In this document: one piece after another, positions 9,312 through 48,175 of the stretch | How positions within the stretch are numbered: the first letter of the stretch is position 1 | Layout: each line of letters starts with the position of its first letter | From: an uncultured Actinomycetes bacterium | Lineage (GTDB): Bacteria > Actinomycetota > CADDZG01 > WHSQ01 | Length of the DNA: 64,000 bases | Assembly: GCA_937863385.1 (NCBI GenBank) | Contig: CALMBW010000002.1 | Coordinates: 62,001 to 126,000, forward strand | Direction: 5' to 3' | Translations under genes and position numbers: made by a program | Notes under the pieces: model-generated | Told to the model about the DNA's origin: nothing | The model's database searches: none | The model's input: only the letters and a program-made list of their open reading frames with translations

Positions 9312-9355
9312 GGGGAAGTGCTTGAGAATGCCCCGCCACGGTTCGGCGAGCCTGG

Positions 9356-9361
9356 TAGCGT
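9356..9361 (+). promoter_or_regulatory. leaderless -10 box for the response regulator
   Basis: TAGCGT followed by 7 bases and the ATG at 9369. Confidence 0.5.
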
Positions 9362-9368
9362 CTCGCTG

Positions 9369-9740
9369 ATGCCTAAGACAGTTCTGATCGTCGAAGACGA
9401 AGAAGCCGTCAGGGAGCTCGAGAAGTTCATCCTCGAGGCCGAGGGCTATGAGGTCATGGAGGCCAGAGATGGTCTCGAGGGGCTGGCCAAGGCCGAGTTC
9501 AAGAAGCCCGATCTGATCCTTCTGGACCTCATGATGCCGGACGTCTCCGGTGGGCGGATGTTCGATGAGATGCAGGAACATCCGGCGACCGCGGGTATCC
9601 CGATCATCGTCGTCACAGGCAAGCCGGACGCGCACGAGATCTTCGATGACCAGATCGGTCAGAAGAATGTCGTCATGAAGCCGTTCGAAGCAGATGCCCT
9701 GCTCGATCGGATCCGTGACCATATCGGCGACCCGGACTGA
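9369..9740 (+). CDS. single-domain response regulator (CheY-like)
   Basis: The 123 residues form one receiver domain: acidic pair in IVEDEEA, phosphorylated Asp in LILLDLMMPDVSG, Thr/Ser switch in IVVTGK, and Lys in VVMKPFEA. There is no output domain, so it probably works by protein contact or as a phosphorelay intermediate. It is 3 bases upstream of the prepilin peptidase gene. No kinase is adjacent. Confidence 0.9.
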   Translation: MPKTVLIVEDEEAVRELEKFILEAEGYEVMEARDGLEGLAKAEFKKPDLILLDLMMPDVSGGRMFDEMQEHPATAGIPIIVVTGKPDAHEIFDDQIGQKNVVMKPFEADALLDRIRDHIGDPD

Positions 9741-9743
9741 AAC

Positions 9744-10514
9744 TTGTTTGAGGTTGCGGCAGCCCTGATGGGGCTGTTGTTCGGAAGTTTCGGCACCGTC
9801 GTCTCCCATCGTGTGCCATTGCGCGAGAACATCGCGACGGGTCGCAGCATGTGTCCGAGCTGCAAGCGACAGATAAAGGCCCACGAGAACATCCCGGTGC
9901 TCAGCTGGCTGGCGCTACGCGGGCGATGCCCCGGTTGCGGCCAACGGATATCGATCCGGTATCCCTTGACTGAACTCGCCACCTCGGTGTTGTTCTTGCT
10001 TGCAGCGTGGAAGTTCGGTCTCAGCGTGGCAGCGTTCGTCTATGCGGGCTTCTTCTGGGCGCTCGTTGTGCTTACCGTTATCGACCTCGAACACAAGTTG
10101 CTGCCGGACCGCATCGTCTTCCCGCTATTCATCGCGGGATGGGCCGGCTTGATCATCGACGCTCTCGTTCGCGGGCAACCGGGCGATCTGACGCAAGCAG
10201 CCATCGGTGCCGCGATCTTCGGAGGCTTCTTCTATCTGCTTGCGGTCCTGGTGCCCGCCGGCATGGGTGGGGGAGACCTGAAGTTGGCCTTCGTGCTTGG
10301 AACCTTCTTGGGGTATGTGGGGGGCGCCGGGGCGGTGCTGGTCGGGATGTTCCTAAGCTTCTTATCGGGCGGCCTGATCGGAGTGCTCCTCATCGCCTTC
10401 TCGAAAGCCGGACGCAAGACGCAGATCCCGTTCGGGCCGTACCTCGCTTTGGGTACAACGATCGCGGTCTTCGCCGGCGAAAGCCTCAGCGATCTCTACA
10501 TAGGGATGATCTAG
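9744..10514 (+). CDS. prepilin peptidase (type IV leader peptidase, A24)
   Basis: The 256-residue membrane protein has the N-terminal GSFGTVVSHRVPL segment, a four-cysteine zinc motif (CPSCKRQIK and CPGCGQR), and an A24 catalytic core with Asp in TVIDLEHKLLPDRI and GGGD in MGGGDLKLA. It cleaves and usually N-methylates type IV pilin-like precursors at the inner membrane. No pilin, ATPase or assembly genes are in this window. The TTG start at 9744 follows the response-regulator stop directly; ATG 9768 is an alternative. Confidence 0.93.
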   Translation: MFEVAAALMGLLFGSFGTVVSHRVPLRENIATGRSMCPSCKRQIKAHENIPVLSWLALRGRCPGCGQRISIRYPLTELATSVLFLLAAWKFGLSVAAFVYAGFFWALVVLTVIDLEHKLLPDRIVFPLFIAGWAGLIIDALVRGQPGDLTQAAIGAAIFGGFFYLLAVLVPAGMGGGDLKLAFVLGTFLGYVGGAGAVLVGMFLSFLSGGLIGVLLIAFSKAGRKTQIPFGPYLALGTTIAVFAGESLSDLYIGMI

Positions 10515-10526
10515 CAGTAAGCGGGA

Positions 10527-11564
10527 CTACAGGTCGTCTGTTCTGGGCGGGCCCTCGAGCACAGGGACGGGGGTGTCCAAGAAGATCTCTTGTGCCAGAG
10601 CGGCGAGTTGGGGGTCGAAGTGTGAGCCGGAGTACCGGATCACTTCGCGCACGGCTGTTTCGAACGAGACGGGTCGTCGGTAGGGCCGGATCGACGTCAT
10701 GGCGTCGATCACATCGGCGATGGAGAAGATGCGGGCTGCAGCCGGGATCTCGGTACCTGTTAGGGCGTCCGGATAGCCCGACCCATCCCAGCGCTCGTGA
10801 TGGTGCCGCACGACTTGGCTCACCACGTCGGGGAACCCGAGGGGAGCGATGATCCGCTCACCCAGGATCGGGTGCGTGTTCAGGACGCGGCGCTCGGTGT
10901 CGGTAAGCCCGGCCGGTTTGTTGAGGATCGATTCCGGTATCCCGATCTTGCCCACGTCGTGGAGAAGGAAAGCCGCTTCGAGCGATTCCGACGGGAGGGC
11001 CCCTGGAAGTAGCGCCACCCTGGCAAGCTTGATGGCCAACGCTGTAACTCGTTCGGCGTGCCCGCCGGTGTAGGTGTCTTTCAGCTCGAGGGCAGCGGCT
11101 AACGCTCGGGCTGCCCCCATGTGTCCACCACCGGCAAGAGGGTCGATCGAGCGGCCGTGCACAACAGCAGCAGCTGGAGCATCGTAGAAGACCCCGCCTC
11201 GGGCAACGTGAACTATCGAGGTTGCCAGATGCTCGGTGGCAGCGCTGCGGCGGACGTATCCGGCGACCCCGATGTCGAGGGCCTCGGCCGCCGTTCGCTG
11301 ATCGTCGGCGTCCGCGATAACCAAGGTTCGCCGCTGCAGTCCGATGGCCCTGATCATGCGCAGGGGCGAGCATGGGTCGGGTTCACTGGGCGATGTGATG
11401 ACTATGACGACGTCGATCTCCGAACCGATCTCACCAAGAGCAGAGGGCGAAACGTCGCGGGGCACGAAGATCTGAGAAGAGCGATCCGCGAGCGCTTCGG
11501 ATATCTCCAGCCAGGCGGCGCTATCGCCGCCTATCAGCACCAGTCGAAGTGTCTTGTCATCCAT
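10527..11564 (-). CDS. HD-GYP cyclic-di-GMP phosphodiesterase with degenerate receiver domain
   Basis: The 345-residue protein has an N-terminal receiver-like domain (about 1-135) without a clear acidic triad or phospho-Asp, then an HD-GYP domain (about 145-330) with HDVGKIGIPESIL, HPILGERI and HHERWDGSGYPD, so the HD and GYP signatures are both present. HD-GYP enzymes hydrolyse cyclic di-GMP to pGpG/GMP. It is the last gene of a three-gene operon with a GGDEF protein, and its ATG overlaps the stop of the response regulator before it. Confidence 0.93.
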   Translation of the reverse strand: MDDKTLRLVLIGGDSAAWLEISEALADRSSQIFVPRDVSPSALGEIGSEIDVVIVITSPSEPDPCSPLRMIRAIGLQRRTLVIADADDQRTAAEALDIGVAGYVRRSAATEHLATSIVHVARGGVFYDAPAAAVVHGRSIDPLAGGGHMGAARALAAALELKDTYTGGHAERVTALAIKLARVALLPGALPSESLEAAFLLHDVGKIGIPESILNKPAGLTDTERRVLNTHPILGERIIAPLGFPDVVSQVVRHHHERWDGSGYPDALTGTEIPAAARIFSIADVIDAMTSIRPYRRPVSFETAVREVIRYSGSHFDPQLAALAQEIFLDTPVPVLEGPPRTDDL

Positions 11565-12022
11565 CAGATCGTCGGCATCCCCATGCGTTCTAGTCGTGAC
11601 GCGCGCTCGACCGACCCGAGCCGTCGCGCCTCGCGTTCCGAGTGAGTCATGGCTATCAATTCCTCCAACAGGTGAGCCAGAGCGACGGGGGAGAAGGGCT
11701 TGGTTACATGGGCGTGGGCGCCCAGTTTGAATGCGCGCAGCGCGGCTTGTGGGCTGTTGCGAGCGGAGAGGACGACGATGGCGAGGTCCTTGGTCGACCT
11801 GTCGCGAAGCTGTTTGAGGACCTCCATGCCGTCACCTCCGGGCATGATCAGATCCAAGACGATGGCATGCCACTCCTGATCGGACAGAAGGTTCAGGGCT
11901 TCTTCCCCGGAGGACGCTTCGCCGAAGTCGATACCTACCAAGCCCAGGTTCAGGCCGACGACGGTCCGGATATCGGCATCGTCGTCACAGACGAGCACGC
12001 GGGGGTTCCGAACGTCGCTCAT
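11564..12022 (-). CDS. response regulator receiver protein
   Basis: The 152 residues hold a receiver domain (about 6-120) with VCDDDAD, phospho-Asp in IVLDLIMPGGDG and Lys in VTKPFSP, then a charged helical tail (about 125-152) with no DNA-binding motif. It overlaps the genes on both sides by a few bases, so it is translated together with the GGDEF and HD-GYP proteins and probably passes a signal between them. Confidence 0.9.
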   Translation of the reverse strand: MSDVRNPRVLVCDDDADIRTVVGLNLGLVGIDFGEASSGEEALNLLSDQEWHAIVLDLIMPGGDGMEVLKQLRDRSTKDLAIVVLSARNSPQAALRAFKLGAHAHVTKPFSPVALAHLLEELIAMTHSEREARRLGSVERASRLERMGMPTI

Positions 12023-13176
12023 GGGTCCCCCGGGGGTGAAACGTCTTGCATCTCGCCGATGCGACCGGCGAGATCACGGAAATTGCTGCGTACGTAATCG
12101 CCCAAACGCAGCTCAGGTGAGACGTTCAGCTTTCGCCGGATGCGTGCCTTGTGGCTTCGAACCGTGCCCGGCCTGATCCCCATCCGGGCGGCGATGTCTT
12201 GTTCGGTTCGACGGTCGGCAAGAAGCGCGAGCACCATCCATTCGCGCTCGGTCAGATCACCGGCCAGCGCATCCGCAGAGAGCCCATGACGACGTGGGTC
12301 GTCGGAACGCCACACTTGATCGCCGCCTGACTCCTTGGCCCTGAACAGCGCGATCTCAGCCTTCGCAACTACCTCCTCGGGGGTGCGCCCCGAGGTCAGC
12401 TCCGCCACTGCGATGGAGCAGGTGAGTGGAGCGGCGGCGGGCATCGACGCGGCGATCTCTCGACGGCATCTCTCGGCCGCGAGATATGCCGTTCCGACCT
12501 CAGCATCGGGGAGGATCACAGCGAACTCGTCACCCGAGTAGCGGAACACCACGTCTGAAACGCGCAAGCTGTCGGTTAGCGCCTGGGCGACACGCTTCAG
12601 CAGCATGTCACCGGCCACCTGACCGTGAGCTGCGTTGAACCCCGTCATCCCATCTAGGTCGACCAAAAGGATAGAGAGCTCGGAACCTATCCGCCGAGCG
12701 CGCGCAACCTCTTGAGCAAGGCGCTTCTCGAAAGCTGATCGATCGGGCAAGCCCGTCACCGGGTCGTCCCGTTTACTTTGCGCGTCGTCATGTTTCGCCT
12801 TGGAGCGAGCGGCGGCGGCGACCCGGGCGATGAATTCATCGGTGTCCGCAGGTTTGCTTATGTAGTCGATCGCACCGCCCTCGATACCTTTCGCTTTGTC
12901 GTTAGGGGATCCGAGTGCCGAAAGGAAGATGACCGGGATGTCGCGGGAGCCAGGGTCACTGGAGAGCCGTTCGAGCACGGTGGCTCCGTCCATCTCCGGC
13001 ATCATCATGTCCAGGAGGATCACGTCGGGCGCGTCGCGCCGGACCTCTTCGAGGGCTTCGGGGCCGCTACCTACCGTTCTTACGTGGAACCTGTGCCGCA
13101 GTTGGATCTCGGCGAGCGCCCTCAGATCCTCGTCGTCATCGACGACAAGTACGACCGGCTTCTGATTCGAACCGAT
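12019..13176 (-). CDS. REC-GGDEF-HTH protein: diguanylate cyclase fused to a LuxR-type DNA-binding domain
   Basis: The 385-residue protein has a receiver domain (about 6-125: LVVDDDED, VILLDMMMPEMDG, SKPADTDE), a GGDEF domain (about 140-300) with SGDEF in place of GGDEF and an RxxD inhibitory site (RVSD) exactly five residues before it, and a C-terminal LuxR/GerE-type helix-turn-helix (about 315-370: LTEREWMVLALLADRRTEQD). It would link phosphorylation, cyclic-di-GMP synthesis and transcription. No ATG, GTG or TTG exists between the in-frame TGA at 13198-13200 and the receiver domain; ATC at 13176, 7 bases after AGGAG, is the best start. GTG 13023 would cut the receiver domain in half. Confidence 0.85.
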   Translation of the reverse strand: MGSNQKPVVLVVDDDEDLRALAEIQLRHRFHVRTVGSGPEALEEVRRDAPDVILLDMMMPEMDGATVLERLSSDPGSRDIPVIFLSALGSPNDKAKGIEGGAIDYISKPADTDEFIARVAAAARSKAKHDDAQSKRDDPVTGLPDRSAFEKRLAQEVARARRIGSELSILLVDLDGMTGFNAAHGQVAGDMLLKRVAQALTDSLRVSDVVFRYSGDEFAVILPDAEVGTAYLAAERCRREIAASMPAAAPLTCSIAVAELTSGRTPEEVVAKAEIALFRAKESGGDQVWRSDDPRRHGLSADALAGDLTEREWMVLALLADRRTEQDIAARMGIRPGTVRSHKARIRRKLNVSPELRLGDYVRSNFRDLAGRIGEMQDVSPPGDP

Positions 13177-13193
13177 TGGATCTCTCCTCTCCC
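13174..13193 (-). promoter_or_regulatory. strong ribosome site in front of an ATC codon
   Basis: On the minus strand the purine run GGGAGAGGAGAG (13193-13182) contains AGGAG at 13188-13184, 7 bases before ATC at 13176-13174. It is the only well-spaced candidate start for the REC-GGDEF-HTH frame. Confidence 0.5.
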
Positions 13194-13289
13194 GTCCTCA
13201 TAAGTCTTTCCGACCCCGGTGGGCTTTTGTATGAACCGTTGGAGCTAACTCGGATAGCAGAGATGGGCTAGTTCTCCAAGAACATCAAA

Positions 13290-27040: not shown

Positions 27041-27501
27041 GATCGCTAAGGTTCGTAGCGGCGTTTTCGGTGCTCGCCTTGATCCTGGGCGCGTGCTCGG
27101 ACGACAAGGGCAAGGACAAGACCGCGGGTCGCGACGACAAGAAGTCGAAGTCCGAGCAGAACGATGCATCGGGCAAGGCCCGCAGCCTGCCGGAAGGTGG
27201 CGTGTGGCTGGCGGTCCTGGGGGTAGCGGACGACCCCAACCTCTTCGATAACGAGACCAAGGAGCTGATCAGGCCGGCAGGCAAACTGCTTGTCGTCGCT
27301 CCGGCGACGTGTTTCGAGGGCCTCGATACCCAGATGGAGATCCCCGGTGAGGAAGGCGGCGGGCCTTCGGATACCAGCCAAGGGGTCTACGTCCTGGGGC
27401 TCGTGTCCGAGGACCGCAAGGCTATCAACAAGGTCTTGCGCAAGACGGACTCTGAAGCCGAGGTCATAGCCGCCGTGGTCGACACCTGCCTGGGCAACTA
27501 G
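27037..27501 (+). CDS. lipoprotein with SPOR-like domain
   Basis: The 154-residue protein has a lipoprotein signal (VLALILGAC), a charged Lys/Asp linker (DDKGKDKTAGRDDKKSKSEQ), and a compact C-terminal domain whose WLAVLGVADDPN and VYVLGLVSEDRKAIN strands resemble the C-terminal domain of the preceding protein. GTG start within a GTGA overlap, so it is coupled to the upstream gene. Function unknown. Confidence 0.65.
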   Translation: MRSLRFVAAFSVLALILGACSDDKGKDKTAGRDDKKSKSEQNDASGKARSLPEGGVWLAVLGVADDPNLFDNETKELIRPAGKLLVVAPATCFEGLDTQMEIPGEEGGGPSDTSQGVYVLGLVSEDRKAINKVLRKTDSEAEVIAAVVDTCLGN

Positions 27502-27584
27502 GCCCACGGCCAACCGGTCCACAGAAGGAGTCTGGGCACATCGGCCGAAATACCCCTTATCGGACGGGGATGGGGGGTTGGCAG

Positions 27585-28223
27585 ATGCGCAGAGGATTGA
27601 TCGCAGGTATCGCAGGGCTCCTGATGGCAGTGGCTCCGCCGGTCCGGGCTCAGTTCGCTTACACCGAAGTGGGACAGTTCGCGGACTCCTCGTGGCTGGC
27701 GCGCAAGGGTGACGACCTGAACTTCTATTTCGCCATGGCCTTTCGTTCTGCCGCCGCCTACGCGGCACCCGGCTACTTTGAGAACCAGCGCAGTATCGAA
27801 GGCTGGGGTGGTATCGGAAAAGGCAACTGCTTCGAGGGAAAGCAAATGATCATGTGCTCGGCCTCGGGACGGATCTATCCCCTTGCAACCGGCAACTTCG
27901 AATTCGACCCTGCATTGGGCTCGGCCTACATGAAGCTCGACGAACGCAAAGACACTGCAGAGCTCTACTGGACCGGCAAGGGTGACGTGAGCCCAGGTGC
28001 GGGTGCCGATGCCGGAGGGGTCTATGGGGCTGCCGCTGCCGGTGCTGTTCGGCACGCGTCGATCGAGGGCACGATGTGGGGCGAGAAGATCTCCAAGCGC
28101 AGCCCGGTGTTCAGCGACCTCTACGAAGTCGTTGGCGTATTCGTGGCCGGCCCCGGTCGCTCCTATACGTTCACCGACGACGGCACGGTGACCGTTCGGG
28201 TCCGCATCCCGATCGGTTCCTAA
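27585..28223 (+). CDS. secreted protein of unknown function
   Basis: The 212-residue protein has a signal peptide (GLIAGIAGLLMAVAPPVRAQ) and a mature part rich in Gly, Tyr and acidic residues with a Cys pair (GKGNCFEGKQMIMC) and a beta-rich end, VAGPGRSYTFTDDGTVTVRV. It has no family I recognise. Its last 28 codons recur, slightly changed, as the remnant at 29902-29985, which shows that this gene end originally lay next to hutU. Confidence 0.65.
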   Translation: MRRGLIAGIAGLLMAVAPPVRAQFAYTEVGQFADSSWLARKGDDLNFYFAMAFRSAAAYAAPGYFENQRSIEGWGGIGKGNCFEGKQMIMCSASGRIYPLATGNFEFDPALGSAYMKLDERKDTAELYWTGKGDVSPGAGADAGGVYGAAAAGAVRHASIEGTMWGEKISKRSPVFSDLYEVVGVFVAGPGRSYTFTDDGTVTVRVRIPIGS

Positions 28224-28302
28224 CCCCAAGCGGTCAGTCTCTTCGCTTCGGTTGCATCGGTAGATCCACCCCGCGCTCTGTCGCGACATCGATAGCGCGC
28301 CC
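28140..28302. repeat. direct repeat, copy A (secreted-protein tail plus hutU 3' end)
   Basis: These 163 bases align without gaps to 29902-30064, 1762 bases downstream, with about 85% identity by hand count. The repeat contains the end of the upstream secreted-protein gene and, on the minus strand, the last 22 codons and stop of a hutU allele. Identity is near total in the secreted-protein tail and about 75-80% in the hutU part. Confidence 0.85.
28234..28302 (-). pseudogene. hutU 3' remnant (second allele)
   Basis: On the minus strand this encodes GRAIDVATERGVDLPMQPKR then RD and a stop, matching the end of the intact hutU ([22 protein letters not shown]). The changes are mostly synonymous or conservative, so both alleles evolved under selection before one was cut. 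Homology ends at about 28302. Confidence 0.75.
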
Positions 28303-28401
28303 AGCCGCACTCCTCATCTGTACCTAGTCCATTCGGTTCATGCGTTAGATCGCCTATAGCGGCTATGAAGTTCCAGCCTCCGCCCTGAACTATGATGGTG
28401 T

Positions 28402-29850
28402 ATGGATAGAAGGTTGGGCGAGGTTGTAATAGCGATCCTTGCTGGATTACAAATAGTTGCCGGTCTTGGCTCCGTTTCGTCAGCGGCTGGGGTTCCTGAT
28501 TCAGAGAGAGCACTCACGAGCTACCTTGGTGGCGAATTGGGCGACAGCGGAACAGCCCTTGCGGGTGCATCCGACGGATCGCTATATGTGGCGGGGGACA
28601 CATCTTCGTCCTTTTTCCCGTCCGCCTCGTCGGTAAGTTACATCGGCGATCCGCAAGGAAGTCAATCGAACCTATTCATTGCCCGGATAGATAGTGACGG
28701 CTCATTGCGGGAAGTTGCGGTGATCGGAGGGTCGGACTTCGAGTCTTTGGCCGACATTTCGGTCACCAGCGATCAAGTAGTTGTGGTAGGCGCCACCTCC
28801 TCGAGCGATTTTCCGAGCGATCCAAGCCCCAAGTGCCCAGAAGAGGGCTGTTCGCTCAATGGCTTTGTGATCGCGATGAACCGATCGCTTGAGAGCATTC
28901 TTTGGGCGAAGGTGGTCGGTGGCTCTCGAGATGACCAATTCACGAGCGTCTACGGGGGGAGGAGTAGCGTGCTGGTCGCAGGCCACACCTTCTCGGATGA
29001 CTTTCCCGTTCGAAAGGGTCTTCAAATGGAGCGACGCGGGAAGTCTGACTTTTTCGTGTTGAGGCTGGATGAAACTGGGCGAACGAGTCGAGGCACCTAC
29101 CTGGGAGGGTACGGAGCCGAGACCTTTCCCCAAATCGACATGGTGTTGGGATCCCCAGTACTCGTCGGAACCTCTACGTCCAAGGCATACCCCTCGACGT
29201 GGAAGGGCAAAAGCTCGGCGACAGGATACTCCCGGGGGGTAGTCTCCCGGCTCGGTTCCTCACTCGGATCGATCAAACAATCGTTCCTCATCGGTGCGTC
29301 GGGAAACGTTGCCGCGTTTTCTTTGGCGGCTCATGATGGGCGTTTGTACCTTGGTGGTAGCACAAGCGGGCCTTGGACTCACCAGATCTCTGGCGCGTCG
29401 GCATTCGACGAGGGTTGCTGCGATGGCTTCCTAATGAAAGTTAACCTAAGAAAGCAAGAATACTCGTGGGTCCGACGGGTGGGAGGTTCTTCCGAGGACC
29501 AGGTCTTCTCCGTATCACTTAGTCGAGCAACAGGTCACATCGCGGTGGGTGGTCGAACAAACTCGAGTGATCTCCAGACGAGGGACGCCGCTCAGAGTGA
29601 CCCCGGATCCTTTGGATGCGAGGATTCCCCTGCCTGTTACGACGGATTTGTCGCGCGAATAGACTCGGGAGGCCGGGTTCAGACTCTTTCATATCTAGGT
29701 GGGTCGGATTTCGATTCGGTCGCAGCAATATCGGCCTGGAATGGTGGGTTTGCCGCTACTGGTGAGACCTCAAGTTCCGATTTCCCTATCCGGAACGCTT
29801 TCCAGTCGATGCTGTTGGGGCCACGCGATGCTTTTGTAAGCGCGTTTTGA
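28402..29850 (+). CDS. secreted SBBP-type beta-propeller repeat protein
   Basis: The 482-residue protein has an N-terminal signal (IAILAGLQIVAGLGSVSSAA) and six to seven repeats of the SBBP type, for example DGFVARIDSGGRVQTLSYLG then GSDFDS, and GETSSSDFPIRNAFQ. Such repeats form extracellular beta-propellers. Codon use is visibly less GC-biased than in neighbours (ATA, AGT, TTA and AAT codons are common), which suggests recent arrival. TATGAT lies 5 bases before the ATG. It is the cargo between the two hutU ends. Confidence 0.8.
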   Translation: MDRRLGEVVIAILAGLQIVAGLGSVSSAAGVPDSERALTSYLGGELGDSGTALAGASDGSLYVAGDTSSSFFPSASSVSYIGDPQGSQSNLFIARIDSDGSLREVAVIGGSDFESLADISVTSDQVVVVGATSSSDFPSDPSPKCPEEGCSLNGFVIAMNRSLESILWAKVVGGSRDDQFTSVYGGRSSVLVAGHTFSDDFPVRKGLQMERRGKSDFFVLRLDETGRTSRGTYLGGYGAETFPQIDMVLGSPVLVGTSTSKAYPSTWKGKSSATGYSRGVVSRLGSSLGSIKQSFLIGASGNVAAFSLAAHDGRLYLGGSTSGPWTHQISGASAFDEGCCDGFLMKVNLRKQEYSWVRRVGGSSEDQVFSVSLSRATGHIAVGGRTNSSDLQTRDAAQSDPGSFGCEDSPACYDGFVARIDSGGRVQTLSYLGGSDFDSVAAISAWNGGFAATGETSSSDFPIRNAFQSMLLGPRDAFVSAF

Positions 29851-46969: not shown

Positions 46970-48175
46970 CTAGCGGGCGTTGCGGTAGATCTCTCTGACG
47001 ATCTTGTCTTCGATCGGTGCCGCGGTCGCCTTGTACATGCCGCTGTCCATGATGGAGAAAGCTGCCCACGATTTCGTCTCTGTGAGCCACACCCATCCGG
47101 TCAAGGAAGAGACTGCCGTGAGGGTTCCCGTCTTGGCCCTCAATTTGACCCCTCTAAGCCGGTCCTCAAGCGTGCCTTGGTCGGCTCCGGCAAGCGTCGA
47201 TCGCAACGTTGCCCACCACGGTTGCTCTTCTGCGTACTCGAGCAAGCGGACGAAGCCTTTAGGTGAGACTCGGTTCGAGTAAGACAACCCGGAAGCGTCG
47301 TAGGCGTCGACGTCGACAGACCGCTTGGCGGCCCACGCCTCGATCGTGTCTGCGCCATGAGCGATAGAGCCACTTCTGCCGGTCTCGACGGCGAGACGCT
47401 TACCGAACATCTCTGCGAAGAAGTTCGACGATCGGCGGTTCATGAACCGCATCATCGCTTCGAGCGGGACCGACGAGACACCGGCTATCGAGTTCAATCC
47501 CGATGGTGGGGTTCCGGCGCCCGGAGCCTTGCGCACCACGACCCCCTCATCTCGAAGCCGTTTCGTGAGGTTGGTAGCCGCTCGCTTCTCGGGGTCGGCG
47601 ATGTGACGCCCATCCCTGCGGTTTCCTTCGAACGACAATGCGGTCGGGATCGGAACCTCCTTGGAGGGGAAGTCGCTCTTCCACCCCGTCGCCCACCAGT
47701 CGCGCACGAAGTAGGAGGTGGCTCCCATCACGCTTCCGCGGATCTTGGTGATCCCTGCTGCTGCGATCTTCTTTGCAAGCACCCCTAGGCGGGTCGGACG
47801 GAATGGGAGCTCCTTGCCGTACCTTCCACCTCCGGTAACGGTGGGATCGCCACGACCGAGGAGCCAGAGGTTGCCTCGCACCACGCCCGCGTCGACCGAT
47901 GTGGCCGAAGCGAAGGTGTTGATCCGCAGGCCGGACTCGACGACATCCAGCAGCGCTAGTGACAACAGGAGCTTCTGGCCCGACGCCGGCACTCGGCGGG
48001 TGGACGAGAAGTGTTGGTACAGCATCTCCTTGCCATCCATCAGCGCCACCGATATCGATCTGCCCGAGGTGTAGCGATCGATGCGTCTCTTCCACGCGGA
48101 GCGAGCACCCGCAGGGGATGCGAGTGATATCAAGACACAGACAAGAAGGACTGTCGGAACGAACCGGCGCATCAA
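46970..48175 (-). CDS. dacB: D-alanyl-D-alanine carboxypeptidase/endopeptidase (PBP4, S13)
   Basis: The 401-residue protein has a signal peptide and the three penicillin-binding motifs: SxxK at PASGQK (Ser65, Lys68), SxN in ASGLSYSN, and KTG in LRAKTGTL. DacB proteins trim or open cross-links of peptidoglycan in the periplasm-like space. AGGAG precedes TTG 48175; ATG 48172 is equally likely. It may form an operon with the M14 gene, 99 bases further on. Confidence 0.93.
   Translation of the reverse strand: MMRRFVPTVLLVCVLISLASPAGARSAWKRRIDRYTSGRSISVALMDGKEMLYQHFSSTRRVPASGQKLLLSLALLDVVESGLRINTFASATSVDAGVVRGNLWLLGRGDPTVTGGGRYGKELPFRPTRLGVLAKKIAAAGITKIRGSVMGATSYFVRDWWATGWKSDFPSKEVPIPTALSFEGNRRDGRHIADPEKRAATNLTKRLRDEGVVVRKAPGAGTPPSGLNSIAGVSSVPLEAMMRFMNRRSSNFFAEMFGKRLAVETGRSGSIAHGADTIEAWAAKRSVDVDAYDASGLSYSNRVSPKGFVRLLEYAEEQPWWATLRSTLAGADQGTLEDRLRGVKLRAKTGTLTAVSSLTGWVWLTETKSWAAFSIMDSGMYKATAAPIEDKIVREIYRNAR

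Follow-up and report, generated by a model that had tools for sequence, protein, structure and literature searches.

The gene on the minus strand at positions 12019-13176 of the window, by which we mean the whole analysed stretch of 64,000 nucleotides, raises the question of whether a protein that joins a receiver (REC), a GGDEF domain and a C-terminal helix-turn-helix (HTH) is a c-di-GMP synthase with a brake or a transcription factor with a c-di-GMP sensor. The sequence-only reading of this DNA had claimed that the three domains lie in one protein, and a domain search agrees, placing all of them above the Pfam cut-offs in one frame; translation of the minus strand, a strand that the earlier reading had not specified, gives 385 residues with zero internal stops. 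The features of the gene product are as follows.

12019-13176, minus strand: REC-GGDEF-LuxR/HTH protein, 385 aa read from ATC 13176, stop included, with 7 orthologs elsewhere.
12820-13152, minus strand: REC domain, residues 9-119 (Pfam Response_reg, 4e-26, above gathering score).
12319-12765, minus strand: GGDEF domain, residues 138-286 (Pfam, 1.8e-32; aligned to PleD; model resembling WspR, DgcR and PleD).
12553-12564, minus strand: inhibitory site (I-site) motif RVSD (R205, D208), which with R159 and R236 gives all four PleD I-site residues.
12523-12537, minus strand: A-site motif SGDEF, residues 214-218, from the PleD alignment.
12292-12312, minus strand: residues 289-295, the WRxDDPR joint that links GGDEF to HTH; every position except x is invariant in eight proteins.
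12118-12255, minus strand: LuxR/GerE HTH, residues 308-353 (Pfam, 1.4e-11; AlphaFold helices; PDB relatives).
12127-12171, minus strand: recognition helix region, residues 336-350, with GTVRSHKARIRRKL invariant in 8/8 orthologs.

In the window protein the Pfam scores reach 112.8 bits for GGDEF (cut-off 23.8) and 44.2 bits for GerE (cut-off 23.5), the latter at residues 308-353, in the C-terminal part where an HTH had been predicted. The HTH matches GerE rather than the PucR-type HTH (PF13556), which the window protein does not match, and GGDEF_2 (PF17853) matches two of the eight family members, the window protein not among them. As had also been proposed, RVSD (205-208) stands five residues ahead of SGDEF (214-218). 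A motif read-out of the receiver finds the phosphorylation residues (the acidic cluster DDD, D56, S86 and the Lys of SKPAD), and hence the acidic pocket, phosphoacceptor Asp and Lys that LuxR/NarL-type response regulators require. An AlphaFold model built from the ortholog alignment has a mean pLDDT of 82 and the three expected folds, with HTH helices at residues 310-320, 325-332 and 336-350; confidence is low in the joint between the domains (294-304) and in the C-terminal tail, and the pTM is 0.49. With this model as query, Foldseek ranks WspR, DgcR and PleD at the top, the model matching the GGDEF domain of WspR at 1.8 Å. A sequence search with the C-terminal part alone leads to the PDB relatives DesR, VraR, EsrB and DevR, which are LuxR-type response regulators.

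Orthologs that are 41-57% identical occur in seven genomes besides the window's own, and within the class (24 genomes) they are confined to the window's family. GGDEF and GerE are present in all eight family members, and a Pfam-recognisable REC in six. The ortholog locus always lies between a prepilin peptidase gene and a DUF5319 gene (7/7), and these two genes are directly adjacent in six genomes of the family that are without the fusion gene. One family member contains a second copy of the DUF5319 gene, interrupted by a stop (L125, G005:C266:4461-4871). When a profile of the GGDEF tail and HTH was run against 396 genomes sampled from the phylum, no further full-length member was found among the best 9-11 candidates per genome, and the single extra match covered the HTH part alone. 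Likewise, among the best 9-11 candidates per genome in 296 genomes, a GGDEF-HTH query was spanned over both domains only in these eight proteins, all other matches ending at or just past the GGDEF domain; it should be noted that rare convergent fusions could be missed among that number of candidates. In a whole-protein scan of the genome contigs most matches were relatives with REC alone or with REC-GGDEF, and none was a closer fusion; in eight genomes from other groups there were REC-GGDEF matches, none of which covered the HTH.

The I-site and the active site were compared across the family by alignment to PleD, whose numbering is used here for the orthologs and whose R313, R359, D362 and R390 we take to be the I-site residues that contact c-di-GMP. 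These positions read R, R, D and R in all eight proteins, those with a dead active site included; by column counting, the chance that four chosen GGDEF columns are all invariant is approximately 0.001. The A-site motif, by comparison, is SGDEF in the window protein, GGDEF in four others, and STDEF, ESDEF and DARTL in the rest, so that GG(D/E)EF is changed in 4/8. Of the phosphate-contacting Lys and Arg, the K332 equivalent is absent in every member and the R446 equivalent is Gly throughout, and both the metal-binding Asp D327 and the base-contacting N335 are gone in L099 and L102. The catalytic site is lost in these two orthologs and probably in L100. The window protein, with no clear loss of the site, retains SGDEF and the equivalents of D327, N335, D344 and K442 and is without those of K332 and R446; D327, N335 and D344 are kept together with a plausible motif in five of the eight. 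Seventeen other GGDEF domains of the phylum present the reverse pattern, with a nearly constant active site and an I-site that is sometimes altered. Among the domains of the fusion the HTH is the best conserved (48% invariant columns over the eight proteins, as compared to 19% for GGDEF and 12% for REC), and the REC phosphorylation site is missing from two orthologs, L101 and L102, in which the rest of the protein is kept. L102 (L102:7054-8253), in which the REC Asp, the active site (DARTL) and the metal ligands are all gone and the I-site and HTH are kept, can be regarded as the natural terminus of a decay from enzyme to sensor.

This asymmetry is our main evidence: an invariant I-site next to a decaying catalytic site suggests that what selection maintains is the binding of c-di-GMP and of DNA, and not c-di-GMP synthesis. 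We would like to emphasize that I-site invariance in eight related proteins is, taken alone, no proof of sensing, since the same residues are common in active cyclases.

The neighbouring genes point in the direction of c-di-GMP as well. Two of them adjoin the fusion gene and had been overlooked, as had the start-codon problem described below.

11564-12022, minus strand: stand-alone receiver, 152 aa, phosphorylation residues present; its ATG overlaps the fusion-gene stop by four bases.
10527-11564, minus strand: protein of 345 aa with an uncharacterised N-terminal region and HD-GYP, a predicted c-di-GMP phosphodiesterase.

HDVGK and HHERWDGSGYP are intact in the HD-GYP protein, and its ATG overlaps the receiver stop. 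We infer that the fusion gene heads a three-gene transcript with the receiver and HD-GYP genes. L099 has the same fusion-receiver-HD-GYP order, and L096 and L097 have part of it; in all three of these (3/7 orthologs) an HD-GYP gene follows, and L099 has a receiver, L097 part of one, between the fusion and HD-GYP genes. Convergent genes downstream of the three-gene set encode a single receiver (9318-9740) and prepilin peptidase (pilD, 9744-10514), and the divergent genes upstream of the fusion gene are the DUF5319 gene and that of a ParA-type ATPase. Within the family the single receiver at 9318-9740 stands out for its conservation (identity of about 77-86%), which exceeds that of its neighbours. 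The adjacent genes that were examined include no histidine kinase.

The intergenic region between the fusion gene and DUF5319 holds a short sequence shared by the carriers of the fusion.

13231-13238, minus strand: CGGTTCAT box, intergenic, a candidate operator or promoter element, near-identical in 7/8 carriers.

The box reads CGGTTCATT in five carriers, CTGTTCATT in L097 and CGGTTCATA in the window; the eighth carrier, L100, has a diverged copy. A conserved CTA(C/G) lies 16-19 bases from it in most carriers, and in the six non-carriers of the family the region from prepilin peptidase to DUF5319 is without the box. This CGGTTCATTcc box is a candidate autoregulatory operator, or else a promoter element of either gene; with its two conserved parts 17-18 bases apart, it could be the DUF5319 promoter. 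Two broader roles were considered and rejected. As the mark of a regulon the box fails, the exact 11-mer occurring at most three times per genome with half of the copies at the fusion locus or in unrelated places. As a general sigma promoter it fails too, its two-part pattern being close to locus-specific and a sigma-70 scan giving no match. The window's genome has a single further exact copy of CGGTTCATTCC (L163:1501-1511; G000:C8:66773-66783, there on the minus strand). It is located between an FtsQ-like and an FtsZ-like gene, a short way upstream of the latter, and may be due to chance. Within the window, two box copies inside an open reading frame form a perfect palindrome of 14 bases, CGGTTCATGAACCG, at positions 47436-47449, and another copy of CGGTTCAT at 28334-28341 lies between the divergent open reading frames 27498-28310 (minus) and 28402-29850 (plus).

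On this basis we consider it probable that the fusion acts as a transcription factor of the response-regulator type and that its GGDEF domain, by way of the I-site, is mainly a sensor of c-di-GMP, with cyclase activity residual or lost. The I-site makes more sense as the part by which a transcription factor senses c-di-GMP than as the brake on a cyclase, since the relatives lose the signal-making parts and always keep the signal-binding parts. In the proposed mechanism, c-di-GMP dimers would bridge R205/D208 of one GGDEF domain to R159/R236 of another and, together with receiver phosphorylation, set the geometry of the protein dimer. The invariant WRxDDPR joint may then relay this geometry to the C-terminal LuxR-type HTH, which would bind DNA, with the shared CGGTTCATTcc region at the gene's own promoter as one possible target; the ligand binding, the DNA binding, the autoregulation, the direction of control and the co-transcription are all things we infer. 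Weak cyclase activity is possible in the window protein, as two proteins with an SGDEF motif, ECA3270 and MbaA, are reported to be active enzymes (PMC3974145, PMC8079147). The SGDEF site of the window strain may thus still produce some c-di-GMP, which the presumably co-transcribed HD-GYP enzyme would remove, giving a local loop.

The main competitor is a trigger diguanylate cyclase, that is, a working feedback-inhibited enzyme that also binds DNA and whose main role is cyclase output. It would be in keeping with D173, N181, D190, SGDEF and K281 in the window protein, with the near-intact sites in five of the eight orthologs, with the demonstration that SGDEF enzymes can be active, and with the HD-GYP gene that adjoins the fusion gene; these sites and the recognisable receiver in six of the eight together suggest that cyclase activity could still have a part to play in most members. 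We nevertheless hold this explanation to be rather unlikely, given that the K332 and R446 equivalents are missing in 8/8 and that the motifs are clearly degraded in three proteins in which the I-site and HTH persist. The same observations weaken one half of the sequence-only reading, in which an active cyclase is inhibited by its own product, whereas the other half, a regulator that binds DNA and, at its I-site, c-di-GMP, is favoured by the domain layout and by the invariance of I-site and HTH. A quite improbable alternative, in our estimate, is an ordinary phosphorylation-controlled LuxR-type regulator in which GGDEF is only a dimerisation spacer and leaves c-di-GMP unbound, a situation that may apply to PucR-type regulators such as MabR. 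Such arrangements exist, MabR joining a GGDEF-like fold without A-site or I-site to an HTH (PMC11617747), and REC is intact in six of the eight fusions. However, MabR is without the I-site motif whose four residues are all invariant here in 8/8, and two orthologs have lost the REC site and kept the rest.

The last alternative concerns the window gene rather than the family, which is real in any case: the gene may be broken or misassembled at its 5' end by an indel after ATG 13201, and the protein perhaps not made as read. From the upstream stop TGA 13200-13198 down to residue 52 (GTG 13023) the frame is without ATG, GTG or TTG. Residue 1 as read is ATC 13176, the sole near-cognate codon in place, and the ortholog start codons are ATG or GTG. 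Two features precede it.

13184-13188, minus strand: AGGAG, Shine-Dalgarno-like, seven bases ahead of ATC 13176.
13199-13201, minus strand: out-of-frame ATG that shares bases with the in-frame stop TGA 13200-13198; its surroundings are similar to those of the L102 ortholog start.

The context of ATG 13201 is GGAAAGACTTATGAGGACG, as against GGAAAAGACCATGGGAACG at the L102 start. Either initiation has shifted to AUC at 13176, or there is an indel, real or of the assembly, between 13201 and REC. GTG 13023 falls inside the REC domain, and comparison with the orthologs places the beginning of REC homology clearly upstream of it; a gene finder would begin there and lose the first half of the receiver. 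The absence of a standard start codon ahead of residue 52 and the out-of-frame ATG speak for a broken gene, but AUC 13176 has a well-placed AGGAG and the remaining 385 codons are open and conserved as in the orthologs, and we give this explanation very little weight. The irregularity sits upstream of REC, and the three domains stay joined with no frameshift between them, as had been supposed.

Returning to the preferred reading of a transcription factor with a GGDEF-based sensor, several known systems resemble the fusion in part. PleD, WspR and DgcR share REC followed by GGDEF with an RxxD I-site, and are its best sequence and fold matches, but they end at the GGDEF domain, with intact catalytic residues and no HTH. 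PopA of Caulobacter, as described in PMC5052742, PMC10333796 and PMC12564702, is a receiver-linked GGDEF protein that has lost catalysis and kept the I-site as a c-di-GMP receptor; unlike the fusion, it works via CtrA degradation and has two receivers (REC-REC) and no DNA-binding domain. PdeL of E. coli carries a LuxR-type HTH on a c-di-GMP enzyme domain and shows c-di-GMP-dependent autoregulation (PMC5052742), although this trigger phosphodiesterase has EAL instead of GGDEF, an N-terminal HTH and no receiver. In Actinomycetes, MabR and the PucR family combine a GGDEF fold with a C-terminal HTH (PMC11617747), but the fold is the GGDEF-like PF17853 without A-site or I-site, the HTH is of PucR and not LuxR type, and a globin takes the place of REC. 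SLUN_31535 of Streptomyces lunaelactis joins a c-di-GMP-type domain to a C-terminal LuxR-type HTH (PMC6205966); that domain, however, is an HD-GYP without key GYP residues, and GGDEF and receiver are both absent. Finally, VpsT and FsnR are REC-HTH regulators that bind DNA under c-di-GMP control (PMC3359988, PMC12564702), but they have no GGDEF domain and bind the ligand elsewhere.

By analogy, the fusion is best read as PopA-like sensing joined to DNA binding, and as the trigger enzyme PdeL in mirror image. The literature searched does not describe any protein under the name GGDEF-LuxR or GGDEF-HTH, and the excerpts of a 2025 c-di-GMP effector review (PMC12564702) contain no GGDEF-sensing transcription factor and none using a GGDEF I-site. 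Within the scope of these literature searches and of the genome searches above, the parts are known and the combination of REC, GGDEF and LuxR-type HTH is new. The family forms a natural series that runs from a near-intact cyclase to a fully dead enzyme, with the I-site and the DNA-binding domain held constant, and such a series allows a direct test of the conversion of an enzyme into a sensor.
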